From: Rhodococcus spongiicola
Lineage (GTDB): Bacteria > Actinomycetota > Actinomycetes > Mycobacteriales > Mycobacteriaceae
DNA length: 64,000 nt
Direction: 5' to 3'
NCBI RefSeq assembly: GCF_004011835.1
Contig: NZ_RKLN01000007.1
Coordinates: 62,001 to 126,000, forward strand
Shown here: in pieces, positions 27,865 to 43,469 of the stretch
Numbering within the stretch: position 1 is the stretch's first letter
How the letters are laid out: each line of letters begins with the position of its first letter
The notes under the pieces: generated by a model
Told to the model about the DNA's origin: nothing
The model's database searches: none
The model's input: the letters and a program-made list of their open reading frames with translations, nothing else
Made by a program: the position numbers and the translations under genes

Positions 27865-28608
27865 GTGACAGTTGTGGACGAAGTAGCACCCAACGTGTTC
27901 CGTGCTTCCGGGACAGACGTGAACGTAGTGATCCTGCGGGACGGTGGCGACCTGACCCTCATCGACGGCGGCTATCCCGGTGATGTCGGCGCCGTGGAAG
28001 GTGCAATCCGGTCGCTCGGCCGAGGTCCGGAAGATGTGCAGGGAATGTTGCTCACCCATGCGCACATCGACCACATGGGCGCGATCGTCGCCTTCCACGA
28101 ACGCTACGGCATTCCAGTGTTCACGGACCCAACCGAAGTCGCTCATGCGCGAAGGGATTACCTCGAGCAGGCAACGGGTAAGGACTTCGTCCCGATGCTG
28201 TACAAGCACGGCGTGCTGCCGTGGTTGCTACGCGTCGCCCGCGCCGGAGCAACCCGGTCGCTCTCGGTCGACGACGCCCAGGCGTTCGCGGCGAGCGGCC
28301 CCCTTGACCTGCCCGGTACTCCAGTCCCGGTGGCTACCCACGGGCACACGTCCGGACACAGCGCATATCACGTCTCCCACCACGGTGTGGTCATTACCGG
28401 TGATGCACTGGTCACGGCGCATCCGCTGTCGAAAGTTCGTGGCCCGCAACTGCTCCCGAAGGTCTTCGACCACGGGAAGCAGGACACCGTCGCGGCTCTG
28501 GATCACCTTGCCGTTCTGGACGCCGAGACCATCGTGCCCGGGCACGGTCCCGCGATGTCCATGCCCATCGCCGAGGCCGTCGAGCAAGCACGTGAGCGAA
28601 GCCGGTGA
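27865..28608 (+). CDS. MBL-fold metallo-hydrolase
   Basis: 247 residues of the metallo-beta-lactamase superfamily. The zinc motif is THAHIDHMG (H65, H67, D69, H70); further ligands are in ATHGHTSGHS and in VVITGDALVT (Asp), and the final His in VPGHGP. This is a single-domain, glyoxalase II/RNase Z-like hydrolase; substrate unknown (thioester, lactone or phosphodiester are possible). GTG 27865 is used. It follows the TetR gene by 43 bp and is ended by a strong stem-loop shared with the convergent glucanase gene. Confidence 0.87.
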   Translation: MTVVDEVAPNVFRASGTDVNVVILRDGGDLTLIDGGYPGDVGAVEGAIRSLGRGPEDVQGMLLTHAHIDHMGAIVAFHERYGIPVFTDPTEVAHARRDYLEQATGKDFVPMLYKHGVLPWLLRVARAGATRSLSVDDAQAFAASGPLDLPGTPVPVATHGHTSGHSAYHVSHHGVVITGDALVTAHPLSKVRGPQLLPKVFDHGKQDTVAALDHLAVLDAETIVPGHGPAMSMPIAEAVEQARERSR

Positions 28609-28702: not shown

Positions 28703-30079
28703 CTACGACCCGAAGAACGATGTGCCGCCGTTATCAGGCGCTGGGTTGGGGGTCGGCTGCGGGTTGGGGGTCGGTTCCGGGGTTGGGGTGGGCTCCGGGT
28801 TCGGGGTCGGTTCCGGGGTGGGAGTGGGTTCCGGGTTGGGGGTCGGCTCCGGGTTAGGTGTCGGCTCCGGAGTACCGGGCTCCTCCCCACCACCGTCACC
28901 TGGGTTGGCCGCGAACTCCGTCAGTGTGATCGTCCACGAGGTCGGGGCGTGGTCCTGGACGTACGAAGCGAAGTCGCTGACGTCGTCGAAAGCGAACCCG
29001 TACGCATGGCCGTTGACGGTGTTCTCGTGCATCGCCCGGGAGTAGTGGCTGGTGATCTCGTTCTTGTAGAAGAGTGAGGGGTCGAGGACGGGCTGATCGG
29101 CGTAGTCGAGCAGCGTCGACCGGTTGAGGGCCGAGCCCAGGATCGCGGCAACCGGCCCGGAGAGGCCGTCGTTCGGGGCGATCAGGGCGCCGTCACAGAA
29201 GAACACGTCCTTGGTGCTCGGTTTCCTGACGGGTGCAACCCCACCGTCGAATTCGAGTACGTCGCCGCGGACTCGACCGGTGTAGGTGACGCCCGTGAGG
29301 TGGTTGGTCACTCTCAAGTCGGTGGTGGCGTACTTGCGCCACACCTCGTTGACGTACTCGTCGTAGTAGGTGGGAGAGAACATTCCGGAGTTGATGCCGT
29401 GACCAGGCGCGATCACCCGGAAGTTGTCGCCGACGATGAGCGACGCGAATTCGGGGCGACTTGCGAGGTCGGCGAAGATCCTCTCTCGGCCGCCGGGGAT
29501 CAGGGTGCCCGTGGTCTGGGAGCGCTCGCCTTCCAACTGGATCGCCAACGGCACGCTGAACTGGTCGACCATGGTGGTGTTGCAGAACATGCCGAGGTCG
29601 TTGAGGGTGAACTCGACCGAGTCGTGTAGCACCCTGAAGGCCGGGTCGCTCTCCACCCAGCCGGCCGGGTACTGCAATGCCTTTCTGCCGGCACCGTCGG
29701 TGACCGCTTTGAACTCCAGTTCGCCGTCGATGGCGAAGTAGATTCGTCCCGACATCTGTGGGATTTCGAAGGTCGTGTCTCCGCTGTTGGACAGCGGGAT
29801 TCCCATGTCGAGGACGCTTCCGTCAGGAGCGTCCGCGGGGACCGGCGTGAAGACCCCGCTGCGGTTGACGAATCCTTGCTGACCGGAGTGGTTCACCCCC
29901 GGGATGTACATCGTGATCGCGCTGTTACCAAAGGCGCCGCTGGCGTTGACTACTTTCGTGGTGAGGTTGGTAGCCGCCCGCGCGCGGGGTGTTAGGGCTG
30001 GGACGAGGGACGATAGAACCGGTGTTCCCAGGGCCGCCGCACCGATTGCGGATCCGAGGAAGGCTCTTCTGCTCAACAT
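28703..30079 (-). CDS. Secreted GH64 beta-1,3-glucanase with PEPTPN-repeat tail
   Basis: 458 residues. A Tat signal ([16 protein letters not shown], cleavage near ARA-AT) exports the folded enzyme. The catalytic part is a GH64/thaumatin-like laminaripentaose-producing glucanase: [12 protein letters not shown] at the start, [44 protein letters not shown], and the final [16 protein letters not shown]. The C-terminal about 50 residues are P-E-P-T-P-N/T repeats ending GGTSFFGS, probably a cell-wall spanning or spacer region. ATG 30079 has CGGAG 8 bp upstream; the GTG three codons earlier is less likely. It would attack fungal beta-1,3-glucan outside the cell. Confidence 0.88.
28743..28871. repeat. 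Tandem 18-bp coding repeats (PEPTPN/T)
   Basis: About seven degenerate 18-bp units of the type GGTTGGGGGTCGGCTCCG, all in frame at the 3' end of the glucanase gene. The GGTTGGGGGT runs make the region G-rich on the plus strand, so copy number may vary by slippage between strains. Confidence 0.85.
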
Positions 30080-30249
30080 TGACTGCACTCCGGGTTCGAG
30101 ATGTTACCGAGCTGTTATCTCGGAGGTGCGCGAGTTTTACACGCCTCACGGAGGAGCGCAACCGAACGGACGCTTGTTATAGTGTGAATCCTGCAGGAAT
30201 GCATCCAAGCCGCGGGGTCGACGTCACCGAGGGTGTGCGTCGGGCGCAG

Positions 30250-31680
30250 TCACCGAGGCTGTGCGTCGCGCACTGTGGACATCAGCTCGGGGAGGTTCCC
30301 GGCGTTGATCAGCTCGAATGTCTTGTCCGCGACGAGCAGGATGTCGCTGTGGGACAGACCGCGACAAGCGTTGAGCTCGAACTTCGTAGTCAGCTCCTCG
30401 TCGGACAGGGGGTTCTCGGGACCGCCGCGGTTGTGGCTGACCCGAGATTCGTGCCATCGCCCATCACGAGTTCTGACCCGAAGCACCGCCGGAAACTGGT
30501 GCGGGTACAGCTTGTTGCAGCTGTCGTCGTCGTGGCAGGTCGCGAGCGCCGCCAGCGCGAGGGTCCTCGGGTCGCGTGCCGCCTCGTCGGTGAAATCGGT
30601 GTGGCCGATACCGAGCCCGCTCCCTCCGAGGAGTGCGCGCGCGACCGTGTAGGGCCCCGAAAAGGCTGCGTGGTAGCCGGATTCAGGTGCCGTCTTGGCC
30701 GCCGGGGGCTCTGCGATGGTGCGCAGAACCGGTGCTGGAACGCCGAGGTCGATCTCGAGGATCTCGTCCGGATCGACCCCTCGGGAACGCAGGTCCCGCG
30801 CCGCATCGATACCGGCGTGCGTGAAATGGTTGCAGGGGTATGGCTTGAAGAAAATTCCCGGCAGTTCCCAGTGCTGTCCGAGGCGATCGACAACCTTGTC
30901 GACGTCGGCACGGTCACCGCAGAACGCGTGCAGGAAGCCGAATCGACCCTCGATGACCGTGGGCGGCCCGGTGAGGCCGTGACGCGCCAGCTGTGCTGCC
31001 CCCACACCCGAGTGCGCTGCCCACCCGCAGTGAGCGCGTTTGACAGTGCCCCCGGTCCGGTTCGCCTCGAGCAGGCCGGCACCGAAGCTGGCGGCGATGC
31101 CCATCGCGTCTGCGATGCCCCTGCTGTCGAGTCCGTAGAGCGAGGCAGCTGCCGCGGCGGACCCGACTGCGCCGCAGATCGAGGTCGCGTGCAGGCCGCG
31201 CTCGAAGAACTCCGAGTTGCCGAGATCCTCGTCGTAGCCACCCATTCCGAGCCGCACCGCGATCTCGATTCCCACGCCCGCGGCATCCAGGAGGCTCGGT
31301 CCGTCAGCCCCAACGGCCTCGGCGACTGCGAGTGCGGTGGGGACGACGGATGCGGACGGATGCAGCACCGAGGGCAGGTGGGTGTCGTCGGAATCCATCG
31401 AATGTGCGAGAGTGCCGTTGACGAGTGCGGCCGTTGCGGCGGGGAACCGGGAGCCGGTTCCGATCGCGGACGCCTCCTCCGTTCCGGACCACTCACGGGC
31501 GACGGCCGTGGCAGCCGTGGCGGACGGCTGGCCTAGCGCGGCAATGGAGTTCCCGAGAACATCGAGGATTCGTCGGGCGACGTCCCTCCTCAGCGTCGAG
31601 GGAAGCCCGTGGTCCCGCGTCGTCACGGCCAGATCGGCAAGCCTGCCGACGACGGTCTGGTGAGCGTTCTGCCGGCTCAT
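30250..31680 (-). CDS. MmgE/PrpD-family protein
   Basis: 476 residues of the MmgE/PrpD family (2-methylcitrate dehydratase, cis-aconitate decarboxylase, iminodisuccinate epimerase). Diagnostic blocks are GNSIAALGQPSATAA, NGTLAHSMDSDDTHLPSVLHPSA, GGTVKRAHCGWAAHSGV, and the C-terminal FKPYPCNHFTHAGIDA. ATG 31680 overlaps the previous gene's stop by 4 bp. It is last in the leftward iclR operon. It probably dehydrates, decarboxylates or epimerises a hydroxy- or unsaturated dicarboxylic acid in the island's pathway; which of these cannot be read from sequence. Confidence 0.88.
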   Translation of the reverse strand: MSRQNAHQTVVGRLADLAVTTRDHGLPSTLRRDVARRILDVLGNSIAALGQPSATAATAVAREWSGTEEASAIGTGSRFPAATAALVNGTLAHSMDSDDTHLPSVLHPSASVVPTALAVAEAVGADGPSLLDAAGVGIEIAVRLGMGGYDEDLGNSEFFERGLHATSICGAVGSAAAAASLYGLDSRGIADAMGIAASFGAGLLEANRTGGTVKRAHCGWAAHSGVGAAQLARHGLTGPPTVIEGRFGFLHAFCGDRADVDKVVDRLGQHWELPGIFFKPYPCNHFTHAGIDAARDLRSRGVDPDEILEIDLGVPAPVLRTIAEPPAAKTAPESGYHAAFSGPYTVARALLGGSGLGIGHTDFTDEAARDPRTLALAALATCHDDDSCNKLYPHQFPAVLRVRTRDGRWHESRVSHNRGGPENPLSDEELTTKFELNACRGLSHSDILLVADKTFELINAGNLPELMSTVRDAQPR

Positions 31681-32519
31681 CGGCCGACCAGCGCCACCGG
31701 GCGCACCGGCGAACCGGTCCCGCCCGTGATACGTAGCGGTGCCATCACGAACGTGAATTCGGTGAGCCCGCGCCGCGACGCGTCCTCGAGGTTCAGGTGC
31801 TCGATGATGTGAATTCCGTTGTCCACGAGCAGTACCCGGTGCACTGGTAGTACGCTGTGGCCTTTGCCGGGTGGTATGTGCTCGAACGCTGTCGTATCGG
31901 CACCCGCGGCGACGATTCCTGTGGCAGCGAGCCAGTTCGCCGCGCTGACGTCGGCACCCGGGACGCCGTCGGTCTGGCCGAGATAGCGGTCGGGCGTGTC
32001 GAAGTGTCGTGCCCATCCTGTGCGAATCAGCGCGACGTCGCCTTGCTCGGGTACCACACCGGCGAGCTCGGCGGCGTTGCGGAGGTCGCCTTCGGTCACG
32101 GGCTGCCCGGCATCGAGCACGTCCACACCACGTACCCGCGCCACGTCCAGCAGAACTCCGCGTCGGATGAGAAACGGGATCGATTCGGCGCCCAACTCGG
32201 CGAAGCGCCCACCACGTTGTGCTTCCTGCGCGTCGATTCCACCGTGCAGCTTGCCCTCGTGGCTGACGTGAGAAAGCGCGTCGACGTGGGTTCCGACGTG
32301 ACCGCCGGTGATGATGATCTCGTTCGATGCGGAGCCGCCGTCCGGCCGCACCATGTCCCCGTGCCGGCGGATGAGGATCATGCGGAAGCCGGGGTGATTC
32401 GGCGAGCACGGCATGCCGGTCGAATGGGGGTGGCCGAGTTCGACGACATCGAGTCGACTCGACGCGACGGCGTCGAGGAGGGAGTCGGTGCGCTCGGTCG
32501 TGGCAGCGTTCTCGGTCAT
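31677..32519 (-). CDS. Cyclase-family metal-dependent hydrolase
   Basis: 280 residues of the 'cyclase' family, which includes kynurenine formamidase and isatin hydrolase; these are metal-dependent amide or ring hydrolases. The metal motif is GGHVGTHVDALSHVS (H-x-G-T-H-x-D...H). Also present are LGHPHSTGMPCSPNHPGF at the N-terminus, VALIRTGWARH and the C-terminal GIHIIEHLNLEDAS, where a second conserved His/Glu pair occurs. ATG 32519 overlaps the CitE-like gene's stop (ATGA). Second amide-hydrolysing enzyme in the island, besides the dihydropyrimidinase-like one, which points to a nitrogenous or cyclic substrate. Confidence 0.88.
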   Translation of the reverse strand: MTENAATTERTDSLLDAVASSRLDVVELGHPHSTGMPCSPNHPGFRMILIRRHGDMVRPDGGSASNEIIITGGHVGTHVDALSHVSHEGKLHGGIDAQEAQRGGRFAELGAESIPFLIRRGVLLDVARVRGVDVLDAGQPVTEGDLRNAAELAGVVPEQGDVALIRTGWARHFDTPDRYLGQTDGVPGADVSAANWLAATGIVAAGADTTAFEHIPPGKGHSVLPVHRVLLVDNGIHIIEHLNLEDASRRGLTEFTFVMAPLRITGGTGSPVRPVALVGR

Positions 32520-33355
32520 GCATTTCTCCTCGCGTGTTCGTATCGTTCGGCCCGATCCAGGACGACGCGCGCGTTGGCGATCACGGCCGGGTCGATGAAC
32601 CGGCCATCGGTGTCCAGCACGGCGGATTCGCCGTTGCATTCGGACCGCGTTGCACTGCCGACCACGCGTCGAGCCGTTTCGACCTCGGCGGCGTCGGGGG
32701 TATAGGCGGCATTGACCGGCGCGATCTGGCTTGGGTGCACGACCGACCGCCCGAAGAATCCCTGGGTGAGTCCCAGCCGCGACGACTCGGCCAACCCGTC
32801 GAGATCGGCGACATCGGTCCACACACTCTGCACCGGCGAGCCGAGTTGGGCAGCGCGCGCGGCGGCGACGATCCAGCCGCGAGCCCACACGAGCCCGTCC
32901 GGCCTGACCCGCAGGTCGGCGGCCAGGTCGGCTTCGCCGAGTGCGATTCCGGTGACCCGAGGGTGGCACCGAGCTAGTTCGGGGGCGCCCAGCAAACCGG
33001 CCGCGGACTCCACGAGTGCATGGACCTCGAAGCAGACCCGTTCTGCGATCGAGGCGAGCACCGCGGGAACCTCCGCCTTGGGCACTCGAATGCCCGCGGG
33101 CCGGGCGTCGGCATGCATCAGCGCGTCGACCTCCGCCTCCGCGCATGCTCCGCTTCCGGCGCTGATTCGAACCCAGATCGTTCGATCCGGGTGGGCCTCT
33201 AGAGCATCGAGTGCATTCGCGAGGGCAAGGGTTTTGGCGTGCACGGGAACTGCGTCCTCGAGGTCGATGACCACGGCGTCGGCCGGGCCGGCAACCGCCT
33301 TCTCGATCCGGTCCGCGCGGTGCCCCGGCACATACAGCCAGCTGCGGGGGGTCAT
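32516..33355 (-). CDS. CitE-like acyl-CoA lyase (HpcH/HpaI aldolase superfamily)
   Basis: 279 residues, close to citrate lyase beta subunit-like proteins such as malyl-CoA and citramalyl-CoA lyases. Conserved points: PRSWLYVPGHRADRIEKA, AVVIDLEDAVP (Mg-binding region), IRVPKAE, the Glu in ALVESAAGL, the Asp in LGEADLAADL and QGFFGRSVVHPSQI (CoA pocket). ATG 33355 overlaps the iclR stop by 4 bp. It is predicted to cleave a hydroxyacyl-CoA into acetyl-CoA or pyruvate plus a second product, matching the CoA transferase on the other arm of the island. Confidence 0.88.
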   Translation of the reverse strand: MTPRSWLYVPGHRADRIEKAVAGPADAVVIDLEDAVPVHAKTLALANALDALEAHPDRTIWVRISAGSGACAEAEVDALMHADARPAGIRVPKAEVPAVLASIAERVCFEVHALVESAAGLLGAPELARCHPRVTGIALGEADLAADLRVRPDGLVWARGWIVAAARAAQLGSPVQSVWTDVADLDGLAESSRLGLTQGFFGRSVVHPSQIAPVNAAYTPDAAEVETARRVVGSATRSECNGESAVLDTDGRFIDPAVIANARVVLDRAERYEHARRNA

Positions 33356-34146
33356 TCGACTGCTGCCGTGGAGGGGACGTCGGCGGGATATCCGAGGTTG
33401 CGTGAGATGCGTGACGCGGCGTCCTTCAGTGTGCCCTCGTACGCGGTGCACGCCTCGGGCGTCATCCGGTAGGCGGGGCCGCAGACCGACACCGAGCCGA
33501 CAACCGTCCCGTCGGCTCCGAACACCGGGGCCGCGATCGACCCGGCCCCCTCTTGCCGCTCACCGACGGATCGACACACACCGTGCTCACGCGCTTCTCG
33601 GAGGGTGTCGCGGAGAAGGTCCGGCTCGATGATCGTCGTCGAGGTCAGCCTGCCGAGCGGTTGAGCGAGCACGTCCTCCTGTTGCTGTAACGGGAGGAAC
33701 GCCAAGATGATTCGGCCGGACGAGCCGGTGTGCAAGTCGAAGCGACGACCGAGTTCGACGGTCATCTTGATCTCTCGGTCGCTTTCGACTTGATCGAGAT
33801 AGACCCGCCCTCCGGGGACGCGCGCGGAGACGGTGGCGGTTTCGCCGGTAGCCCGCTGTAGGTCGAGGAGCGCATCCTGCGCGGCGCGGCGCAGCGGCGA
33901 GACGTCGATTGCCCGCGCACCCAACGTCGCCGCGGCCGGGCCCAGAAGGTAACGACGTGTTGCGGTGTCGTACAGGAGCAGACCGCACTCGACGAACGTC
34001 GTGAGGATGCGGTGCGTGACGGCTTTGGACAGGCCGGTCGAACGGGCGATCTCCGATACCCCGAGGGCGCTGGCGCTACGGCCGAATTCCAGCAGAACCT
34101 CGGCCGCCCGCGCTGTCGCGACAGTTCCTCCGGTGGAGGTCTCCAT
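33352..34146 (-). CDS. IclR-family regulator
   Basis: 264 residues. The N-terminal winged helix includes VLLEFGRSASALGVSEIARSTGLSKAVTHRILTTF; the C-terminal effector-binding (GAF-like) domain runs from about 95 to 250 with SSGRIILAFLP, RSVGERQEGAGSIAAPVF and VGSVSVCGPAYRM. ATG 34146 has GGAGA just upstream. First gene of the leftward operon and divergent from the rightward operon, with CCGC-N3-GCGG-type dyads between; it is the obvious regulator of both arms and its effector is probably the pathway substrate or an intermediate. Confidence 0.92.
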   Translation of the reverse strand: METSTGGTVATARAAEVLLEFGRSASALGVSEIARSTGLSKAVTHRILTTFVECGLLLYDTATRRYLLGPAAATLGARAIDVSPLRRAAQDALLDLQRATGETATVSARVPGGRVYLDQVESDREIKMTVELGRRFDLHTGSSGRIILAFLPLQQQEDVLAQPLGRLTSTTIIEPDLLRDTLREAREHGVCRSVGERQEGAGSIAAPVFGADGTVVGSVSVCGPAYRMTPEACTAYEGTLKDAASRISRNLGYPADVPSTAAVE

Positions 34147-34191
34147 GCTGTCTCCATTCTCCGATCGGCCCGGGAACACCCCCTTCGTGTG

Positions 34192-34206
34192 TACCGCGCA
34201 GCGGAA
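34192..34206 (+). promoter_or_regulatory. Candidate IclR operator 1
   Basis: TACCGCGCAGCGGAA with arms CCGC / GCGG, 46 bp before the iclR start. The half-site GTTCCGCTAT recurs at 34246-34255. Confidence 0.55.
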
Positions 34207-34300
34207 CAAATGTCTAGGGGGTTTCCATGCCATGTACCGGGTGTCGTTCCGCTATCAAATCGTATAGCAGGTCTTGTGCGTCCATTCGTGGGAGTGCATA

Positions 34301-34355
34301 GTGCAATAGACCACACTAAAGTGGTCCGCTAAGCGGAACGTTTGGTCTAGTGCAA
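34301..34355 (+). promoter_or_regulatory. Nested inverted repeats in the divergent promoter, including candidate IclR operator 2
   Basis: Outer arms GTGCAATAGACCA (34301-34313) and TGGTCTAGTGCAA (34343-34355) match at 11 of 13 positions when one is reversed and complemented. Inside are ACCAC...GTGGT and GTCCGCTAAGCGGAAC (34324-34339), a CCGCT-A-AGCGG dyad similar to operator 1. The region lies 42-96 bp before the FAD oxidoreductase start. Confidence 0.6.
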
Positions 34356-34396
34356 CGTCTAATCCAAAGCGCTGACGCGGAGCACGAGGAGGAACC

Positions 34397-35806
34397 ATGG
34401 ACGGTCCGGATGTCGACTTGGTCGTCGCCGGTGCAGGCGGCGGATTGGTCGCCGCGCTACGTGCTGCCGAAATGGGCGCGAGCGTTCTCGTCGTGGATGC
34501 CGACGCAGACTTTCGGCGCGGCAACAACACCTCGATGTGCACGGCGATGATCCCGGCGGCAGGAACGCGCTGGCAGAGGGTGGCGAACGTTGACGACAGC
34601 CCCGACAGGTTCCTGGGGGACATCGCTCGCAAAACGAAGGGCACGGCGGATCTGCGGTTGGCGCGAGCACTCGCCGACGTGAGCGCCCCCATGGTTACCT
34701 GGCTGGCGGACTCCCTCGGCTTGGACCTGCACCTGGTCACCGATTTCCGCTATCCGGGTCACAGCGCGGACAGGTGTCACACCATCGCCGGACGACACGG
34801 GTCGCAGTTGCTCGGCCATCTCGTGGATCGGACTCGCCGGCACCCGGGGATCGAACTGATCGCACCGATGAGTCTGCAGAATGTCTCGACGGAGTACGGC
34901 AGGGTCACGGGTGTCGAGATCGCCAGCCCCGACGGTGCCGGCGAGCACGTCACAGCCGGAGCAGTGCTCCTCGCCACCAACGGATTTGGCGCCGACGCCG
35001 GCCTGGTGCGGCAATGGATACCGGAGATCGCCGACTGCCACTACCACGGCGGTCAGTACAGCCGGGGGGACGCGCTCCGCATAGGACGAGCCCTGGGCGC
35101 GGACACTGCTTTCCTTGACGCCTACCAGGGGCACGCGGCCTTGTCGTCGCGCTGCAAGACACTGGTGGGATGGGCGACGGTCCTGCACGGCGGGATCATC
35201 GTCAACAAGGAAGGCCAGCGGTTCGCACCGGAAACGACAGGCTACTCGGAGTTCGCCGCCTTGCTGGCCGCACAGCCGGAAAGTGCCGGCTGGATCATCA
35301 TCGACGAACACATCGCCGACCTGTGCAGCACCTTCGACGACTTCCGCGCGGTCACAGAGAACGGTGCACTGGTCGAGGCAGCGAGCGCGCACGAACTCGC
35401 GGAACGACTGCACCTGCCCGCCGACGTTCTCGAAGACGAGATCTCGGCGTCGCACCGTGCCGCCGCCGGGCTCGAGCCCGACCGGCAGGGGCGAATCGAC
35501 GACCGACACGCACTCACCCCGAACTACATCGGGATCGGCATCACTCCCGCCCTGTTCCACACACAGGGCGGCCTGGTGGTCGATGGTTCGGCTCGCGTCC
35601 TCGACGAACGTGACCACGCGCCGATAGAGGGGCTCTACGCCTCAGGCGGCGCCGCCACCGGGATCTCCGGCAAAGGAGCTGGCGGATACCTCGCCGGCAA
35701 CGGTCTCATCACCGCGCTCGGGCTCGCCTTCCTGGCGGCAGAAGACGTGGGGCAGCAGAAGACGTGGGCAGCCGGGTCGGCGTCCGGTTCCCGTGCCATC
35801 AGTTGA
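34397..35806 (+). CDS. FAD-dependent oxidoreductase, fumarate reductase/ketosteroid dehydrogenase-like
   Basis: 469 residues, FAD_binding_2 family. The Rossmann motif is GAGGGLVAALRAAEMGASVLVVDA (12-35, dinucleotide-binding glycines at 12, 14, 15), and the C-terminal FAD closure is GLYASGGAATGISGKGAGGYLAGNG. The middle substrate domain contains HTQGGLVVD. No signal peptide, so cytoplasmic. Such enzymes reduce or form C=C bonds next to a carbonyl or carboxylate. ATG 34397 has AGGAGGAA upstream, the strongest ribosome binding site of the island. First gene of the rightward operon; likely acts on the imported substrate. Confidence 0.85.
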   Translation: MDGPDVDLVVAGAGGGLVAALRAAEMGASVLVVDADADFRRGNNTSMCTAMIPAAGTRWQRVANVDDSPDRFLGDIARKTKGTADLRLARALADVSAPMVTWLADSLGLDLHLVTDFRYPGHSADRCHTIAGRHGSQLLGHLVDRTRRHPGIELIAPMSLQNVSTEYGRVTGVEIASPDGAGEHVTAGAVLLATNGFGADAGLVRQWIPEIADCHYHGGQYSRGDALRIGRALGADTAFLDAYQGHAALSSRCKTLVGWATVLHGGIIVNKEGQRFAPETTGYSEFAALLAAQPESAGWIIIDEHIADLCSTFDDFRAVTENGALVEAASAHELAERLHLPADVLEDEISASHRAAAGLEPDRQGRIDDRHALTPNYIGIGITPALFHTQGGLVVDGSARVLDERDHAPIEGLYASGGAATGISGKGAGGYLAGNGLITALGLAFLAAEDVGQQKTWAAGSASGSRAIS

Positions 35807-35872
35807 CCCCCACAGGACAAAGGCCCAGACACGACAGAGGCCCAGGAGAAGGGCCAAGACAGGAGAAGGGTA

Positions 35873-37333
35873 ATGAGCAGCTACCTGATCAAGAACGGCA
35901 CCGTGGTCCGTGGCGGCCGTTCGGGTCCCGCGGAAGGCGAGCACAGCGACGTCCTCATCGAGGACGGGAGGATCTCCGCCATCGGGCCGGGCCTGCGTGC
36001 CGACAACGCCGAAATCGTGGATGCGACAGACAAGCTCGTCTTCCCCGGCGTGGTCGACGCGCACCAGCACTGGGGTATCTACAACCCGCTCGCCGAAGAC
36101 ACCGTCACCGAATCCCGCGCCAGCGCACAAGGTGGCGTCACCACTGCACTGACCTATATGCGGACCGGTCAGTACTACCTCAACAAGGGTGGCGCATATT
36201 CCGACTTCTTCCCCGAGGTGCTCGACGCCTCGAACGGGCGGTCGTACGTCGACTACGCATTCCATCTCGCGCCGATGTCGAAGCAGCACATCGACGAGAT
36301 TCCCACACTCGCCGCAGACCAGGGCGTGACGTCGTTCAAGATCTTCATGTTCTACGGCAGCCACGGGTTGCACGGACGCTCGACCTCGCAGAGCGACTTC
36401 CTGATGATCCCCGAGGACGAACGGTACGACCTCGCTCACTTCGAGTTCGTCATGCGGGGAATCCAGAAGGCCCGCGAGCAGATGCCCGAACTGGCGCCCC
36501 ACATCTCGTTGTCGCTGCACTGTGAGACCGCGGAGATCATGACCGCGTACACCAAGCTCGTCGAAGAGGAGGGGAAGCTCACCGGACTCGCCGCGTACAG
36601 CGCGTCACGGCCCCAGCACTCCGAGGGGCTCGCGGTGACCATCGCGTCGTTCCTCGCCGACGAGACCGGGCTGCCGAACATCAACCTGCTGCACCTGAGC
36701 TCCGCGAAGGCCATGAAGGCAGCGATGAAGATGGCGGAGGCCTTCCCGCACGTCGACTTCCGACGTGAGGTGACCATCGGCCACCTCCTCACCGACATCG
36801 ACACCGCAAATGGGCTCGGGGCAAAGGTCAACCCACCGATCCGTCCCCGCGAGGACGTCGAGGCGCTGTGGGAGCACATGCTTGCCGGCAATGTCGATTG
36901 GGTGGTCTCCGATCACGCCTGCTGCAAGGAGGAGATGAAGTTTGGCGACAACCAGGACGACATCTTCGCTGCGAAGTCGGGGTTCGGGGGCACGGAGTAC
37001 TTGCTCGCCGGGCTGGTGACCGAGGGCCGCAAACGCGGACTCTCGCTGCGTCGCATCGCGCAATTGACCGCCACCGACCCGGCCGACCGCTACGGCCTGC
37101 CCGGAAAAGGCCGGCTCGCGGAAGGCTTCGACGCCGACATCGCGATCGTCGACCCGAATCGGACGTGGACGGTGCGGGCGGAGGATTCGGAATCCACCCA
37201 GGAGTACACGCCGTTCGAGGGCTTCGAGCTCACAGCCGCGGTGACGGACACCTTCGTGCGGGGCCATCGCGTTCTCGCGGGCGGCACCGTGACCGGCGAC
37301 CCTGTCGGCCACTACCTGTCGCGGCCCTACTGA
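35873..37333 (+). CDS. Dihydropyrimidinase/hydantoinase-like amidohydrolase
   Basis: 486-residue cyclic-amide hydrolase. All binuclear metal ligands of the dihydropyrimidinase group can be assigned: HQH (H64, H66), the carboxylated Lys in SFKIFMF (K156), LSLHCET (H216), LLHLSSA (H274) and SDHACC (D347). Opens with YLIKNGTVVRGG and closes with the small beta domain ADIAIVDPNRTW. Length is normal. It should open a hydantoin-, dihydropyrimidine- or cyclic-imide-like ring. ATG 35873 follows GGAGAAGGG. The 66 bp before it contain degenerate repeats of AGGCCCAGACACGACA-type sequence. Confidence 0.88.
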   Translation: MSSYLIKNGTVVRGGRSGPAEGEHSDVLIEDGRISAIGPGLRADNAEIVDATDKLVFPGVVDAHQHWGIYNPLAEDTVTESRASAQGGVTTALTYMRTGQYYLNKGGAYSDFFPEVLDASNGRSYVDYAFHLAPMSKQHIDEIPTLAADQGVTSFKIFMFYGSHGLHGRSTSQSDFLMIPEDERYDLAHFEFVMRGIQKAREQMPELAPHISLSLHCETAEIMTAYTKLVEEEGKLTGLAAYSASRPQHSEGLAVTIASFLADETGLPNINLLHLSSAKAMKAAMKMAEAFPHVDFRREVTIGHLLTDIDTANGLGAKVNPPIRPREDVEALWEHMLAGNVDWVVSDHACCKEEMKFGDNQDDIFAAKSGFGGTEYLLAGLVTEGRKRGLSLRRIAQLTATDPADRYGLPGKGRLAEGFDADIAIVDPNRTWTVRAEDSESTQEYTPFEGFELTAAVTDTFVRGHRVLAGGTVTGDPVGHYLSRPY

Positions 37334-37344
37334 GGATCGAATTC

Positions 37345-38562
37345 GTGACCAACACAACTGATTCCGGGCGCGTGGCGGGACCACTTCGGGGCTTCCGCGT
37401 CATCGACGTCTCGACCATACTCGCGGGGCCGCTCGCCGCCCAGATCCTCGGCGACTTCGGTGCCGAGGTGATCAAGATCGAGCATCCGCGAAAGCCCGAC
37501 GGCATGCGCGGCCACGGTCTCGACAAGGACGGTGTGCCGCTGTGGTGGAAGATGATCAGCCGCAACAAGCAAACGGTCACCCTTGACCTCAGCACCACAG
37601 ACGGGCAGGGCATCTTCCGGGACCTCGCGGCCACAGCAGACGTGGTGATCGAGAACTTTCGGCCCGGCACGTTCGAGCGATGGGGTTTGTCGTACGACGT
37701 ACTCTCGGCAGTCAATCCCGGTTTGATCTTGCTGCGCGTGACTGGTTTCGGGCAGAAGGGGCCGTACTCCAAGCGCCCGGCGTTCGGCACCCTGGTCGAG
37801 TCGATGAGCGGCTTCGCGCACCTGACCGGTCCGCCCGACGGTCCGCCGACGCTTCCCGCGTTCGGCCTGGCCGACTCGATTGCGGGTATCGCCGGATCGT
37901 CGGCGGTGTCCATGGCTCTGCTCGAACGCGAGCGAAACGGGGGCACCGGCCAGCAGGTCGATCTCGATCTGCTCACCCCCATCATGACCGCGGTCGGCCC
38001 AGGCGTGATGTATGCCGATCAACTCGGAATCGATCAGGAACGCACCGGAAATCGGTCGCAGAACAACGCGCCTCGAAACCTGTACCGGACCAAGGACGAC
38101 CAGTGGGTCGCCATCTCCACGAGCGCACACGCGATCGCGGAGCGGGTCATGCGCATCGTCGGCCACCCCGAAGTGATCGACGAGGACTGGTTCGCGACAG
38201 GGCGGCAACGGGCCCAGCACGCGGATCTACTCGACGCCTACGTCGGCGACTGGATCGCCGAGCGGACACGCGACGAGGTGACCGAGGTCTTCGAGGATGC
38301 CGGTGCAGCGGTAGCTCCGGTGTACCGCCCGAGCGACCTGCTGCGTGATCCACAGGTGGTCGACACCGACATGATCACCGCCGTGGACGACGAGGAACTC
38401 GGTCCGATGCGAATGCAGAACGTGATGTGGCGGATGGGTGGATCGCCGGGCTCGATCCGTCACACCGGCCGGTCGGCGGGAGCGGACACCGATCGCGTCC
38501 TCTCCGCACTGGGTCGAACACCCCACGACCTCGACGACCTGCGCGAGCGCGGCGTCATCTGA
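37345..38562 (+). CDS. CaiB/BaiF (family III) CoA transferase with altered active-site motif
   Basis: 405 residues of the family III CoA transferases. Hallmarks: STILAGPLAAQILGDFGAEVIKIE, DVVIENFRPGTFERWGLSYD, LRVTGFGQKGPYSKRP and the C-terminal APVYRPSDLLRDPQ. The position of the usual catalytic Asp (RPGYD in formyl-CoA transferase) reads RPAFG, so Gly148 replaces it, with Glu152 four residues on. This variant forms a recognisable subgroup, and Glu152 may take over. GTG 37345 lies 11 bp after the amidohydrolase stop with GAGGA upstream. It would activate the ring-opened acid as its CoA ester, feeding the CitE-like lyase. Confidence 0.87.
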   Translation: MTNTTDSGRVAGPLRGFRVIDVSTILAGPLAAQILGDFGAEVIKIEHPRKPDGMRGHGLDKDGVPLWWKMISRNKQTVTLDLSTTDGQGIFRDLAATADVVIENFRPGTFERWGLSYDVLSAVNPGLILLRVTGFGQKGPYSKRPAFGTLVESMSGFAHLTGPPDGPPTLPAFGLADSIAGIAGSSAVSMALLERERNGGTGQQVDLDLLTPIMTAVGPGVMYADQLGIDQERTGNRSQNNAPRNLYRTKDDQWVAISTSAHAIAERVMRIVGHPEVIDEDWFATGRQRAQHADLLDAYVGDWIAERTRDEVTEVFEDAGAAVAPVYRPSDLLRDPQVVDTDMITAVDDEELGPMRMQNVMWRMGGSPGSIRHTGRSAGADTDRVLSALGRTPHDLDDLRERGVI

Positions 38563-38603
38563 CAGGGCCACATCAGCGGTTACATCATGCAGGGGAGCAA
38601 GCC

Positions 38604-39920
38604 TTGAAATCGCGTTGGTTGACCATCGGCATCGTCCTCGGGCTGGTGGTGGTGAACTACATCGATCGCAGCGCGATTTCCTACGCGGCGAGCGATCTAC
38701 GAGACGAATTCGGGATCAGCGCCGGGCATTACGGTGTGATCAGCTCCGCTTTCTCGATCGGGTACATGCTGTTCGCACTGCTGTCCGGCCCACTGGTCGA
38801 CCGCTTCGGACCACGCCGGGTGCTCATTGTGGGCATGTTCATCTGGGCGGCTGCTACTGCCCTGACACCGCTTGCCGGCGGGTTCATCGGATTGGTCCTG
38901 CTGCGCATCTTCCTCGGCGCCGGGGAAGCTCCGTGCTTCCCGGCTGCGACCCGCATCGCCAGCCGTTGGCTTCCGATCCAAGAACGAGGCAAGGCGCTCG
39001 CCCTGATCGGTGGCGTGGCGGTATCCGGCAGCCTGTTGGTGGGCGGACCCATCCTTACCCAGCTGATCGCATTCACCGGCTGGAAGGGCATGTTCGTGAT
39101 CTTGGGGGTCGCCGGTGTCGCGTGGGTGTTCGTTGCGCTGCCCTGGCTGAAGAACTCACCGAGTGAGGCATCCTTCGTCTCAGAGGAAGAGCTTCGCTAC
39201 ATCCGTGAGGGTCAGGTGGAGGGCGAGGATACCGGCCACGAGTCGAAGGCTGAGTGGGGAAAGGTCCTCCGCAACCGCAACCTGTGGGTCGTGGGTCTGG
39301 GCTATTTCGCTTGGGGGTTCATGTTCTGGGTGTTCATGTTCTGGCTCCCGCAGTACCTCGAGCACTCGTTCGGACTCTCCATCCAAGCTATCGGCGCGTT
39401 CTCGGTTGCGCCGTGGGCGGCAGGTGTCGTTGGCGCGCTCGCCGGCGGGATCATCGTCGACCGTGTCTACAAGCGCACCGAGAGCATTCGGTCGCGGTTC
39501 GTCATCATCGGTGTCGCCCTGCTGCTCGCCGGAGCGTCAGTGGCACCGATCCTGTTCGTGCCTGGCAACTTGACGGTTGCGCTGATCTGCATTTCGGCGG
39601 GTGTCGGTTTCGGCTTCATCACCGGGGGCATCTGGTGGGTAGCTTCGATCGACGCGGCTCCGACACAGCCGGGCACCGCTGCAGGCTTCGCCGACGCGTG
39701 CTTCGCGCTGGCGGGAATCGTCGCACCGACCGTCGTGGGCTTCATCGTCAACCAGAGCGGAAGCTACGACGGCGGATTCGTCGTGATGTCAGTTCTGTGT
39801 CTCGTAGGCGCTACCGCGATGCTCTTCTTCACCGAGGAGCAGGAAAGGCACCCCACCGACTCCGCGAATCCTCCCGATGAGTCCGCAGACGTGGAAGTGT
39901 CCGATAGGACGGTAGGTTGA
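38604..39920 (+). CDS. MFS transporter, ACS (anion:cation symporter) type
   Basis: 438 residues, 12 TM helices. N-terminal NYIDRSAISYAASDLRDEFG and the loop GPLVDRFGPRRVLI are characteristic of the ACS family, which imports organic anions such as tartrate, phthalate or galactarate. The first helix starts right after a TTG at 38604, preceded by AGGGGAGC 6 bp upstream; the longer in-frame extension would overlap the CoA transferase. Final gene of the rightward operon, so it is the likely importer of the island's substrate, suggesting that substrate is an organic acid. Confidence 0.87.
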   Translation: MKSRWLTIGIVLGLVVVNYIDRSAISYAASDLRDEFGISAGHYGVISSAFSIGYMLFALLSGPLVDRFGPRRVLIVGMFIWAAATALTPLAGGFIGLVLLRIFLGAGEAPCFPAATRIASRWLPIQERGKALALIGGVAVSGSLLVGGPILTQLIAFTGWKGMFVILGVAGVAWVFVALPWLKNSPSEASFVSEEELRYIREGQVEGEDTGHESKAEWGKVLRNRNLWVVGLGYFAWGFMFWVFMFWLPQYLEHSFGLSIQAIGAFSVAPWAAGVVGALAGGIIVDRVYKRTESIRSRFVIIGVALLLAGASVAPILFVPGNLTVALICISAGVGFGFITGGIWWVASIDAAPTQPGTAAGFADACFALAGIVAPTVVGFIVNQSGSYDGGFVVMSVLCLVGATAMLFFTEEQERHPTDSANPPDESADVEVSDRTVG

Positions 39921-39952: not shown

Positions 39953-42028
39953 TCACCACCACCCGGTCGCTGGACCGAGGGCAAGCCCGAGGGGAGGCGC
40001 AAGAGTCCGGGAGTACGTCGCGGTGAGGTGGTTCGAGTCGCGGTAGATCAGAACGTTTCCCTCGATGACCTGGCAGCGATCGGTGCGGCAAACAGCGTCG
40101 GACAGATCGAGCAGCCGAACGTTCGGCAGTTGCGCGGCTGCGGTCGGCGCGGGGTCGACCGGTGACAGGACCGCGTCGCGGTCGATACCGCACGATTCGG
40201 CGTTGCCGCCTCGTCCGGCGAGGCAGTCCGAGGCCCGGTACTCGACGCCATCGCGTTCGAGCCATGGTGTGTCGCGTATCGCGACCACCGGGAGCTGCCG
40301 ATCGGCGAGGGCCTGCCACAACGCGACGTAGCCGGCGGGGGTGTAGTCGCCGGGACCGTCGGGCCGCGGGCGGGTCGAGGTGCTGAACACGACGTCGGGG
40401 GGCATCGCGTCGAGCGCGTCGATCACGCTATACGTCCACTGCTCGCATTCGCCGATTTCCGAGTCGGGTCCGGGTGGCAACACCGCCGGGCATCCCACCT
40501 TCAGGTAGGTCTGCACTCGAAAGTTGTGTTCTCGGCCGAGGATGTCGAGGGCTGGTTGCCAGTTCTCGGCGTGTGAGCCTCCGATGAGTGCGAGCGTGCG
40601 GGCACTGTTGGGGTCACCGTACGTGCAGGTGCGCGCGAACGTCTCACCATCCTGCGCCAGGCAGCCGTCGGGCGTGGAGTCCGGGAGGTCCGCATGAGCG
40701 ACGAACCGCGACGGTTGTTCTCGCTCCGGAGGTGCGTCGGCGCCTTCTGTGAGTGCCGCGGCGCCGGGATAGATCAGCGGGTCGAGTTCGGTCTGTTGTG
40801 TGGACTCGTCCGCCCTGCGGTCGATGAACGCGGTCAAGGACACTGACCCCCCGGCGATCGCGACCGCGACCACGGAGACGGAGGCGATCAGCACCGTCTT
40901 GGTACGTCCCGATCCGGAGGGTCGACGAATCGGTGTTTCGATCAGTCTGGTGGTCGCCTCCGCGAGCACCAGGGACAGCCCGATGACGACGAGACCGCCC
41001 GTGAATCCGGCGTCGGGCTTGTCGAGCAACACGAGATACCCGATCAGGAGCGGCCAGTGCCACAGGTACAGCGCGTAGGCCATGTCTCCGAGACGGTGCA
41101 GCGGGCGAGTCGTGAGCAGACGAGTGACCGGGTTGTCAGTGCCGTTGTCGGAGTCGGACCCGGAATATCCGGCCATGATCAGGGCCAGGGCCGCGCCCAC
41201 CGGAACCAGAGCCCACGGTCCCGGGAACTGGTTGCGGCCGTCGAGAAACACCCCGCACCCGATAAGGACCGCGAGACCCGCGAAGGACAGCAGGATCCGC
41301 GTCGATCGGGGGAAGCGCAACCACGGCGCGACGCACGCCAGGAGACCGCCGGCCAGCAACTCCCACATGCGTGCGCCGGTGTCGTAGTAGAGCCAGGTCT
41401 GCGGCATCGAACTGGTCGCCGCGTAGATGAACGAGGCTGCCGTGAACACCGCGAGCAGGACCGTGAGCGGCAGCCGAACCGGATAGCCCCGTGACCGCAA
41501 CAACCACGCCACGCCAAATACCACCGCCAGTGCGGCTAGATAGAACTGGCCTTGGACCGAGATCGACCACAGGTGCTGCAGCGGACTGACGGACGGATCC
41601 GCAGCCAGATAGTCGCTCGCCGTATCGGCAAGGTGCCAGTTCTGTAGGAAAAGCAGCGATGCCGTCGTCTGTCTCGCAGTGTCGTACCAGGCCGTCGCGG
41701 GGTAGTGGAGGATCGTGAACGCAGCGACCACCGCGAGGATCAGTACCAGCGCAGGTGCGAGACGGCGGGTAACGCGCCGCACGACCGGGACCGGATCCAA
41801 CGGCTTCATCGACTCGGCGGTCCGCAGCAGAGAGCCTACGAAGAAGAATCCTGACAATGTGAGGAAGATGTCGACGCCGCCGGAGACGCGGCCGAACCAC
41901 ACGTGGTAGACCACGACGAGGGCGATTGCCAGACCGCGAACGCCATCGAGGTCGCCCCTGCGAACTGTGGGGACGCGGTTCGCCGAGCCCAGCTGCCCGG
42001 TGGATCTATCGGCGGGTTGGAGGAACAC
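39953..42028 (-). CDS. Acyltransferase-3 membrane protein with SGNH domain (OafA/YrhL type)
   Basis: 691 residues. The N-terminal about 380 residues hold roughly ten TM helices with the acyltransferase-3 motifs [19 protein letters not shown] and [14 protein letters not shown] (catalytic His in YHVW). Residues about 440-690 form a periplasmic SGNH hydrolase-like domain with [12 protein letters not shown] (Ser) and YRDSNHLT (Asp/His). Such proteins O-acetylate cell-wall sugars, lipids or secondary metabolites at the outer face of the membrane. GTG 42028 is used. Its end lies 32 bp after the convergent MFS gene; it is divergent from bioA. Confidence 0.88.
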
Positions 42029-42158
42029 GCAATCCTCTTCGGTGTGCTGGGTGGGGCTGAAATCGGGTCGACGCGCACCGCGGACCGAGAGTCGACGGCA
42101 CTTCCCTCACGTTACCTGTTGCAGCGAGCGATCAGCTGGGCGCCTACAGTCGGGCGGC

Positions 42159-43469
42159 GTGAACTCCGTGCGCATGCCCTCCGATCGGATCGTCGAAATC
42201 GACACCAACCACTTGTGGCACCCCTATGGAGCATTTCCGGCCTCGACCGGCCCGCTCGTCGTCGAGTCGGCGGAGGGCGCTCGGCTGACCTTGGCGGACG
42301 GCACCGAACTGGTCGACGGAATGAGTTCCTGGTGGTCGGCTATCCACGGCTACCGCAACCCGGTCCTCGACGCCGCCGTCACCGACCAGCTCGGCCGCAT
42401 GAGTCATGTGATGTTCGGCGGGCTCACCCACGCGCCCGCTGCCCGCCTCGCGGAGCTGTTGGTCCAAATCACACCGGAAGGTCTCGACAAGGTGTTCCTT
42501 GCGGATTCCGGTTCCGTGTCGGTCGAGGTTGCCATCAAGATGTGCCTGCAGTTCTGGAGGAGCACGGGCCGACCAGAGAAGCATCGCCTACTGACCTGGC
42601 GGGGCGGCTATCACGGAGACACGTTCGCACCGATGAGTGTCTGTGATCCGGACGGCGGCATGCACTCGATGTGGACCGACGTCCTCGTCCAGCAGGTGTT
42701 CGCGCCTGCGCCTCCGCGAGACTTCGACCCTGTCTACGTCGCCGAATTCGAACGAATCGTGGTCGAGCACCGCGACGAACTAGCCGCGGTCATCGTCGAA
42801 CCCGTCGTTCAGGGCGCGGGCGGCATGCGTTTCCACCACCCCGACTACCTGCGGGAGCTACGCAGGATGTGTGACGAGCACGGCCTACTCCTGGTGTTCG
42901 ACGAGATCGCGACCGGTTTCGGCCGCACCGGCGAACTGTTCGCCGCCGACCATGCCGGAGTCACGCCGGATGTCATGTGCGTCGGCAAGGCGCTCACAGG
43001 CGGCTACCTCACCCTCGCCGCGACCCTCTGCAAGGAGTCGATAGCGGAGACGATCAGTGCGGGCCCGGGCGGCGGCATCATGCACGGTCCGACGTTCATG
43101 GCGAACCCGATGGCCTGCGCCGTCGCGGCCGCTGCGGTGGAGTTGCTGCTCGCGCGGGACTGGCGCGCCGAGGTCTCCGCGTTGAACGAGGGTCTCGAAC
43201 GTGGCCTGGCTCCGGCACGAGATGTGCCGGGTGTCGCGGACGTGCGGGTCCTTGGCGGAGTCGGAGTAATCGAACTCTCCGATCCCGTCGACATGCAGTC
43301 CGCGACAGATGCGGCCGTCGCTTCCGGAGTGTGGCTTCGACCGTTCCGGAACCTGATCTATGCGATGCCCCCGTACGTGTGTTCCGTCGACGAGGTCGAC
43401 CGCATCGCGGCCGGCATGGTCGCGGCCGCCCACAGCCAAGTGCGACTATCCGCGCTGCCTCACAATTGA
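42159..43469 (+). CDS. bioA: Adenosylmethionine-8-amino-7-oxononanoate aminotransferase
   Basis: PLP aminotransferase that makes 7,8-diaminononanoate from KAPA, using SAM as amino donor. 436 residues. Typical BioA blocks: HLWHPYGAF at the N-terminus, [73 protein letters not shown], and the PLP lysine in VGKALTGGY (K277). GTG 42159 is used; GTG 42168 and ATG 42174 are alternatives and no strong ribosome binding site is visible. A BioQ-type box follows its stop, so bioF-bioD may also have their own promoter. Confidence 0.95.

Follow-up and report, generated by a model that had tools for sequence, protein, structure and literature searches.

The stretch of DNA analysed here, called the window, is a 64,000-nucleotide segment of the Rhodococcus spongiicola genome (contig NZ_RKLN01000007.1, positions 62,001 to 126,000), and at window positions 30250–39920 it holds an island of eight genes on two divergent arms, which form one functional unit and recur as such in other Actinomycetota. 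The leftward arm encodes an IclR-family regulator, a CitE-like lyase, a PF04199 cyclase and an MmgE/PrpD protein, and the rightward arm encodes a flavoprotein, an amidohydrolase, a coenzyme A (CoA) transferase of family III and an MFS protein (gene check and Pfam; Table 1). We propose, at about an even chance of being right, that the two arms are catabolic operons that together serve the breakdown of a five-membered cyclic imide built on a C4 backbone, with a succinimide or maleimide alkylated on carbon as the likeliest substrate. An earlier, sequence-only reading of the window had described an IclR-controlled catabolic island for a probably cyclic nitrogenous acid; its gene number, arms and outer coordinates were exact on gene checking, its gene families were the same by Pfam, and the ATGA overlaps that it noted on the leftward arm (stop of one gene, start of the next) are present at 3/3 junctions.

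The identical eight genes in identical order were found on a plasmid of Rhodococcus gordoniae (amidohydrolase 87% identical), and the complete set also in Nocardia, Mycolicibacterium and Arthrobacter sp. YD4, whose membership of another order suggests transfer of the whole block. Recurrence was counted in two sets of loci with at least two genomes in common, one of 42 amidohydrolase loci (40 of the 54 places found, plus two plasmids), and one of 80 loci in named genomes, out of 455 confirmed amidohydrolase genome loci. Gene counts were taken from tblastn at preset identity thresholds; some gene clusters from a crude gene caller include spurious antisense frames, and these are not the basis of the cited counts. 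The full eight-gene set, which the earlier reading had proposed to look for in other genomes, was present in 7/42 and 16/80 loci, the latter comprising 14 with exactly that set and 2 with additional genes. Cyclase and MmgE/PrpD occurred together in 28/42 loci, and never one without the other at the thresholds used; in the 80 loci the pairing was looser, with cyclase and window-type MmgE/PrpD in 35, cyclase only in 4, and MmgE/PrpD only in 9 (several at cut edges). Gene counts in the 80 loci are lower bounds, as the 8–10 kb flanks end inside islands: CoA transferase was found in at least 75, IclR in at least 66, the flavoprotein in at least 58, CitE in at least 56, window-type MmgE/PrpD in at least 44, a PF01177 racemase in at least 40, cyclase in at least 39, a second MmgE/PrpD in at least 29, and the MFS protein in at least 17. 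Ten genomes with no cyclase in the flank were checked, and 9 have one, with best-match coordinates adjoining the flank in all 9, which by these coordinates would place it on the same contig.

Of 397 genomes of the order, 52 have the amidohydrolase and 55 the cyclase; 51 carry the two together and 341 carry neither, which leaves 1 genome having amidohydrolase without cyclase and 4 cyclase without amidohydrolase; since these genomes are mutually related, Fisher values for the co-occurrence overstate independence. The sole genome with amidohydrolase only (G054) is a draft assembly in 550 contigs, and its amidohydrolase contig is 6,059 bases long. The flavoprotein (E < 1e-100) was present in 32/397 genomes, and 32/32 of those have the amidohydrolase. 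A chance neighbourhood is ruled out by the recurrence counts, the paired palindromes described below, and this coincidence across genomes. In many Actinomycetota the island is larger: in addition to the flavoprotein, amidohydrolase, CoA transferase, CitE and IclR genes, it includes an ABC transporter of the branched-chain type, another MmgE/PrpD, and the PF01177 racemase, whose two conserved cysteines lie in DCVLDP and NGCSAV-type motifs that we take to resemble those of hydantoin racemase.

Three other arrangements were seen among these loci. On the R. gordoniae plasmid (L031:158-6377), a second set of GntR, HyuA, HyuB and amidase genes adjoins the eight-gene island. Loci L072 (9414-17356) and L073 have an amidohydrolase from a divergent subfamily (48% identical), accompanied by SDR, AMP-ligase, MaoC and luciferase-like genes and by a second CoA transferase and MmgE/PrpD. 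In Pseudonocardia sp. CNS-004 (L115), the flavoprotein, one permease, and the second MmgE/PrpD each match in two pieces, perhaps owing to assembly frameshifts.

The divergent region between the IclR and flavoprotein genes is 250 bp long and holds two palindromes with starts 132 bp apart, each 1 mismatch from GTTCCGC-N3-GCGGAAC. This pattern was derived from the window and its relatives, and afterwards scored on the divergent regions of 22 loci with IclR, flavoprotein and MFS genes (window included; 20 distinct). Two copies at ≤3 mismatches, one per arm, were present in 22/22 regions, with a spacing of 132 bp in 17/22, and the best site had ≤2 mismatches in 22/22 real regions versus 10/4400 first-order Markov copies (3 mismatches were reached in 104/4400 copies). 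Genome-wide, at ≤2 mismatches, the pattern matched 48 places versus 22 for a reversed control, so that a single site is unspecific and the argument rests on the conserved pair. Together with the recurrence, the paired palindromes support the earlier claim of a single IclR-controlled catabolic unit, in which IclR would bind at two operators and control both arms. A third palindrome, 1 mismatch from the pattern, lies at window 27428–27444, upstream of a metallo-beta-lactamase-fold-like gene (27865–28608), and may be due to chance.

Distant relatives fill the same slots with other enzyme families. From 53 plasmid records with a flavoprotein homologue, 20 were picked for annotation and spread of genera and read, with slots assigned mostly from record annotation, and families verified by profile or tblastn for part. 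A ring hydrolase was present in 17 of these neighbourhoods, an amidase in 16, a hydratase in 18, a C–C lyase in 16, and all four in 13, and three 50-kb control stretches from other parts of such plasmids contained no more than 1 slot each (with an amidase from a different family besides in one of them). The ring hydrolase is dihydropyrimidinase-like in R. gordoniae (87% identical to that of the window) and, at 30–34% identity, in Haloferax, Halomarina, two Natrinema, Halorubrum, two Variovorax and Methylobacterium, is HyuAB in Azospirillum, Roseomonas, three Sulfitobacter and Sphingomonas, and is a PuuE-like 'polysaccharide deacetylase' in Burkholderia plantarii and Acidiphilium (HyuAB there too), these last proteins having allantoinase PuuE as best NCBIfam match (up to 142 bits, cut-off 425). 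The amidase slot is taken by the isochorismatase family (PF00857), in R. gordoniae by the cyclase, the hydratase slot by LeuCD-like or MmgE/PrpD proteins, and the lyase slot by the isocitrate lyase/phosphoenolpyruvate (PEP) mutase family, CitE, or HMGL. Replacement is slot by slot: the compact island of Natrinema zhouii keeps IclR (26% identity), the flavoprotein (39%), the amidohydrolase (30%) and the CoA transferase (45%), and has isochorismatase for cyclase, LeuCD for MmgE/PrpD, HMGL for CitE, and TRAP for MFS. The window CoA transferase is 45–48% identical to those of haloarchaeal islands, and its MFS protein is 49% identical to the one adjoining the flavoprotein in the Acidiphilium island, where the ring hydrolase differs. 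A CoA transferase accompanies a CitE or HMGL lyase in 7/7 loci, and a lyase of isocitrate-lyase/PEP-mutase type alone in 1/9 (Fisher p 0.0014); the Sulfitobacter SK012 island, for example, has an isocitrate-lyase-type lyase and no CoA transferase, and the S. pontiacus stretch has a separate 'aldolase/citrate lyase family' gene too. Counted apart from the 20 neighbourhoods, four distant amidohydrolase matches lack this flavoprotein, and three of them lie beside isochorismatase and methylisocitrate-lyase-type or aconitase genes (that of PBL-E5 does not). Judged from these sequences, microbes of very different kinds seem to have arrived at one route with enzymes of differing families.

Some of these plasmids carry further genes of related kinds. 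Halomarina sp. BND7 (L171:8555-22994) has, within 15 kb, three amidohydrolase–isochorismatase pairs, of which one adjoins AtuA/DUF4387 genes and another a CoA transferase and a CoA ester lyase. On the Variovorax sp. PBL-E5 plasmid (L074:2797-10769), F420 biosynthesis genes and an LLM flavin oxidoreductase lie beside another dihydropyrimidinase-like gene. In Sulfitobacter sp. S190 (L181:14143-21161), an operon with a molybdopterin oxidoreductase and a 6-hydroxynicotinate reductase adjoins the island.

LeuCD/aconitase-like enzymes hydrate cis dicarboxylates, and isocitrate-lyase-type and citramalyl-CoA-type lyases cut malate-type acids. Three unrelated families that open imides or ureides share one slot, mostly together with an amidase and followed by a diacid tail, and a five-membered imide of a C4 diacid is the simplest link between ring opening and tail: opening of a maleimide yields a cis diacid directly, which fits the LeuCD-like hydratase tail, and an alkyl group on the diacid would explain the need for a C–C lyase. 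Dihydropyrimidinase-type enzymes are described as hydrolysing cyclic imides such as phthalimide (PMC4437985), and the cyclic imide hydrolases HxnM and a P. putida enzyme as related to PuuE (PMC9304392). In the proposed route, the MFS protein would import the substrate, the flavoprotein would desaturate the ring, turning a succinimide into a maleimide, the amidohydrolase would hydrolyse the imide to the half-amide, and the PF04199 cyclase would free ammonia from it to give an alkylmaleate, which MmgE/PrpD would hydrate to an alkylmalate. The CoA transferase would then convert the alkylmalate to its CoA ester, and the CitE-like lyase would cut this ester into an oxo-acid (pyruvate if the carbinol carbon bears a methyl group) and an acyl-CoA. 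Islands without a flavoprotein would accept maleimides, and, more speculatively, the larger islands might use their racemase and second MmgE/PrpD to even out stereoisomers. Hydrolytic ring opening and CoA activation followed by C–C cleavage, as the sequence-only reading had it, are features that the gene families point to. From its candidate substrates, unsaturated cyclic imides are kept; pyridine-like, pyrimidine-like and isatin-like compounds fit less well, because the LeuCD/aconitase-like hydratase and isocitrate-lyase-type or HMGL lyase of the relatives suit a C4 dicarboxylate.

For the two hydrolases, conservation of active-site residues was assessed. The metal ligands of the amidohydrolase (H64, H66, K156, H216, H274, D347) are invariant in 16/16 aligned members, as is Tyr161, which aligned with the Tyr of D-hydantoinases; at the family level, the protein is by sequence a ring hydrolase from an imide-hydrolysing family with an intact metal site. 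The cyclase scores 89 bits against a PF04199 cut-off of 23, and HxGTHxDxxxH, which we take to be the PF04199 motif, is invariant in 12/12 sequences. A weak model of the cyclase (pLDDT, the predicted local distance difference test, of 64) had as Foldseek neighbours the uncharacterised cyclase 5ibz, isatin hydrolases and kynurenine formamidases, with all significant matches within its own superfamily. Isatin hydrolase itself was a weak sequence match (E 3e-6), and isatin or indole-acetate breakdown was rejected, as there is no dioxygenase among the eight genes and the cyclase is only distantly isatin-hydrolase-like.

The flavoprotein belongs to a distinct FAD_binding_2 family. Against curated NCBIfam models it scored 205 bits for flavocytochrome c (cut-off 285) and 144 for TcuA (cut-off 369), reaching neither, and the position of fumarate-reductase Arg402 aligns with its Tyr283, a Tyr in 15/16 aligned homologues (structure 1jrz is titled as an Arg402Tyr mutant); H388, Y431 and Y283 are conserved across domains of life. 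By this Tyr and by scores below the cut-offs given, it differs from flavocytochrome c fumarate reductases, urocanate reductase and 3-ketosteroid dehydrogenases, and its assignment as fumarate reductase or TcuA as such was rejected. The earlier description as ene-reductase-like is therefore not clearly right, given the replaced Arg402; the protein may be a dehydrogenase rather than a reductase, with ring dehydrogenation favoured because of pathway logic.

For MmgE/PrpD, both Pfam domains lie above their cut-off of 32 each (209 and 118 bits), placing it in the superfamily, and the curated 2-methylcitrate dehydratase PrpD model is far from reached (42 vs 950); the nearest solved structures are IRG1-like, IDS-epimerase and cis-aconitate decarboxylase, and the protein is proposed to be a hydratase, although it could be an isomerase or epimerase. 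The CitE-like lyase best matches RipC/Ccl among NCBIfam models, at 159 bits, below the cut-off of 375, and the CoA transferase best matches succinate-glutarate CoA-transferase, also below cut-off. The MFS protein scores 260 bits against TIGR00893 (cut-off 395).

Several observations weigh against the proposed imide route. The flavoprotein model matched urocanate reductase, fumarate reductase and ketosteroid dehydrogenase equally, so that the fold gives no redox direction, and no flavoprotein was found within the stretch examined in 20/42 and 22/80 loci. We know of no PF04199 enzyme that acts as a half-amidase. The plasmid sample was chosen rather than random, and of its 20 neighbourhoods, 3 are without ring hydrolase, 4 without amidase, 2 without hydratase, and 4 without lyase: Neorhizobium and Tistrella lack ring hydrolase and amidase, Halomarina lacks the hydratase, Variovorax SRS16 and PBL-E5 lack the lyase, Sphingomonas JE1 lacks amidase and lyase, and Enterococcus, with the weakest flavoprotein match (30% identical), lacks all four. 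B. plantarii is the exception to the lyase rule, having a CoA transferase with an isocitrate-lyase-type lyase, beside an acyl-CoA dehydrogenase.

The other contrary points are shared with the main rival, a 5-substituted hydantoin or dihydropyrimidine route that we consider unlikely, in which a racemase and a hydantoinase would act, the cyclase would remove the carbamoyl group, and the skeleton would end in a CoA-dependent lyase. The amidohydrolase is nearest to allantoinase/hydantoinase models (AllB 232 vs a cut-off of 358, D-hydantoinase 199 vs 393) and has the hydantoinase-aligned Tyr161, the racemase with hydantoin-racemase-like motifs in 40/80 loci suits hydantoin equally, HyuAB and PuuE-like proteins open hydantoin or allantoin rings as well, and L-serine ammonia-lyase genes, as an amino-acid route might want, lie near two Variovorax islands. 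Such a route would be expected to yield an amino acid, yet no additional conserved family occurred in more than 11 of the 80 loci (the largest was an SDR), and none of the 8 named among 34 clusters listed around these loci is an aminotransferase or ammonia-lyase. In addition, the relatives' LeuCD-like hydratase and isocitrate-lyase-type or HMGL lyase fit an unsaturated dicarboxylate, the racemase query had no match in the genome of the window, and no racemase is listed in the R. gordoniae island.

A reduced pyridine-type N-heterocyclic carboxylate, handled as in reductive nicotinate breakdown with the flavoprotein reducing the ring and the amidohydrolase opening an enamide or lactam, is improbable. 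In nicotinate fermentation, dimethylmaleate hydratase and dimethylmalate lyase catalyse the last steps, as in the tail of the relatives, and a gene annotated as 6-hydroxynicotinate reductase is found in the operon beside the Sulfitobacter sp. S190 island; but neither a ring hydroxylase nor an Fe-S ring reductase occurs in the compact islands, genes of this kind are also absent from the stretches examined near the islands of SK012 and S. pontiacus, and a separate amidase would be needless after an enamidase. Similarly doubtful is another order of the same enzymes, with the imide opened first and the flavoprotein dehydrogenating an acyclic alkylsuccinate in the manner of TcuA, which makes cis-aconitate from tricarballylate. 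TcuA is among the flavoprotein matches, and MmgE/PrpD and LeuCD would take a cis product, but the TcuA cut-off is missed, and neither Arg402 nor further substrate-site positions of flavocytochrome c3 are conserved, which makes a dicarboxylate site doubtful. An itaconate/mesaconate or citramalate pathway that has acquired two unrelated hydrolases is very improbable: the CitE-like protein is nearest RipC/Ccl, the CoA transferase resembles mesaconate and succinate/glutarate transferases, and a Burkholderia arboris plasmid (an unannotated MmgE/PrpD match, outside the 20-neighbourhood count) has a CoA transferase (58%), CitE (39%) and MmgE/PrpD (57%) with no amidohydrolase or flavoprotein in its 14-kb stretch, yet RipC falls short of its cut-off, an itaconyl-CoA hydratase is absent from the eight genes (a MaoC gene lies ~6 kb beyond the R. 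gordoniae island), and the coincidence of amidohydrolase and cyclase in 51 genomes shows that they are not accidental additions.

The proposed imide route was compared with known systems. Microbial cyclic imide metabolism as studied by Ogawa, Soong and Shimizu in Blastobacter reportedly uses an imidase and then a half-amidase, with the dicarboxylate passing to the tricarboxylic acid (TCA) cycle. The island would share a dihydropyrimidinase-like ring hydrolase and subsequent amide hydrolysis to the dicarboxylate, but differs by an added flavoprotein, hydratase, CoA activation and C–C lyase, and these added steps imply an alkylated diacid unable to enter the TCA cycle directly. The tail of nicotinate fermentation in Eubacterium barkeri leads from alkylmaleate through alkylmalate to pyruvate and an acid, and several relatives of the island use the same LeuCD-like and isocitrate lyase/PEP mutase families, whereas the window has MmgE/PrpD, and CoA transferase with CitE, in those places; by Pfam, no aconitase-type hydratase or isocitrate-lyase-type lyase is among its eight genes. 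Bacterial itaconate degradation (RipABC; Ict/Ich/Ccl) likewise proceeds by a CoA transferase and then a CitE-type citramalyl-CoA lyase, but the island is without itaconyl-CoA hydratase, has another CoA transferase, and has extra amide hydrolases and a flavoprotein. In fungal nicotinate breakdown by HxnM/HxnN (PMC9304392), an imidase opens a cyclic imide and an amidase then releases ammonia in a similar manner, but the imide is the six-membered 3-hydroxyglutarimide, the imidase and amidase families are unrelated, and a CoA or lyase tail is missing. The sequence-only reading knew no described pathway with this complement; no genetic description of the gene set or of alkylated-imide breakdown was found in searches of an open-licence library, which omits most subscription journals, and the eight-gene set itself proved to be one version of a widespread island family.

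If the proposal is true, the island provides a gene set for the breakdown of carbon-alkylated cyclic imides, and a function open to testing for hundreds of genes whose present annotation stops at the superfamily, as 'dihydroorotase-like', 'cyclase', 'MmgE/PrpD', 'CoA ester lyase' or 'FAD-binding' (the amidohydrolase alone is in 455 loci). It would also be an instance of one pathway logic realised with different enzyme families per lineage, with CoA activation mainly where the lyase needs it. A more specific idea, which we offer as a long shot, is that this island, like its relatives, supplies a microbial route so far missing, one for the imides in which haem and chlorophyll breakdown ends, and that bacteria and haloarchaea assembled it repeatedly from unrelated enzymes. 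The imides meant are hematinic acid imide, methylethyl- and methylvinyl-maleimide, and their succinimides; since each of them has a methyl group on the ring, hydration and cleavage could always yield pyruvate together with glutaryl-, butyryl- or crotonyl-CoA.

Table 1. Features of the island, in window coordinates, with supporting matches and proposed roles.
Feature	Position	Strand	Evidence and proposed role
MmgE/PrpD	30250..31680	-	PF03972 209 bits, PF19305 118 bits; proposed hydratase of ring-opened unsaturated diacid
PF04199 cyclase metal hydrolase	31677..32519	-	PF04199 89 bits; proposed half-amide hydrolase
CitE/HpcH-type acyl-CoA lyase	32516..33355	-	PF03328 90 bits; proposed 3-alkylmalyl/citramalyl-CoA lyase
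IclR-family regulator	33352..34146	-	PF01614 and PF09339
Operator-like palindrome GTACCGC-GCA-GCGGAAC	34191..34207	strandless	beside leftward arm
Operator-like palindrome GGTCCGC-TAA-GCGGAAC	34323..34339	strandless	beside rightward arm
FAD_binding_2 flavoprotein	34397..35806	+	PF00890; proposed imide alpha,beta-dehydrogenase (reductase possible)
Dihydropyrimidinase/allantoinase-like amidohydrolase	35873..37333	+	profiles, metal ligands; proposed cyclic imidase
CoA transferase family III	about 37345 (GTG)..38562	+	PF02515 378 bits; proposed alkylmalate activation
MFS importer, organic-anion (2A0114) type	about 38604 (TTG)..39920	+	PF07690 225 bits

Where exactly the CoA transferase and MFS genes start is uncertain; the 12-base spacing before the CoA transferase start is also present in the R. 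gordoniae record. G+C content is 0.661 for the island versus 0.657 for the whole window, so that composition alone is no mark of foreign origin, and no tRNA was found in the window by ARAGORN. Directly downstream of the leftward arm, at window 28703–30088 (- strand), lies a gene for a secreted-looking, possibly HtaA-like protein that has a Tat-like signal and a long tail of Pro-Glu-Thr-Asn repeats. On the right flank, with frames judged by eye, there are an acyltransferase-like gene (39953–42028, - strand) and a BioA-like aminotransferase gene (41967–43469, + strand).

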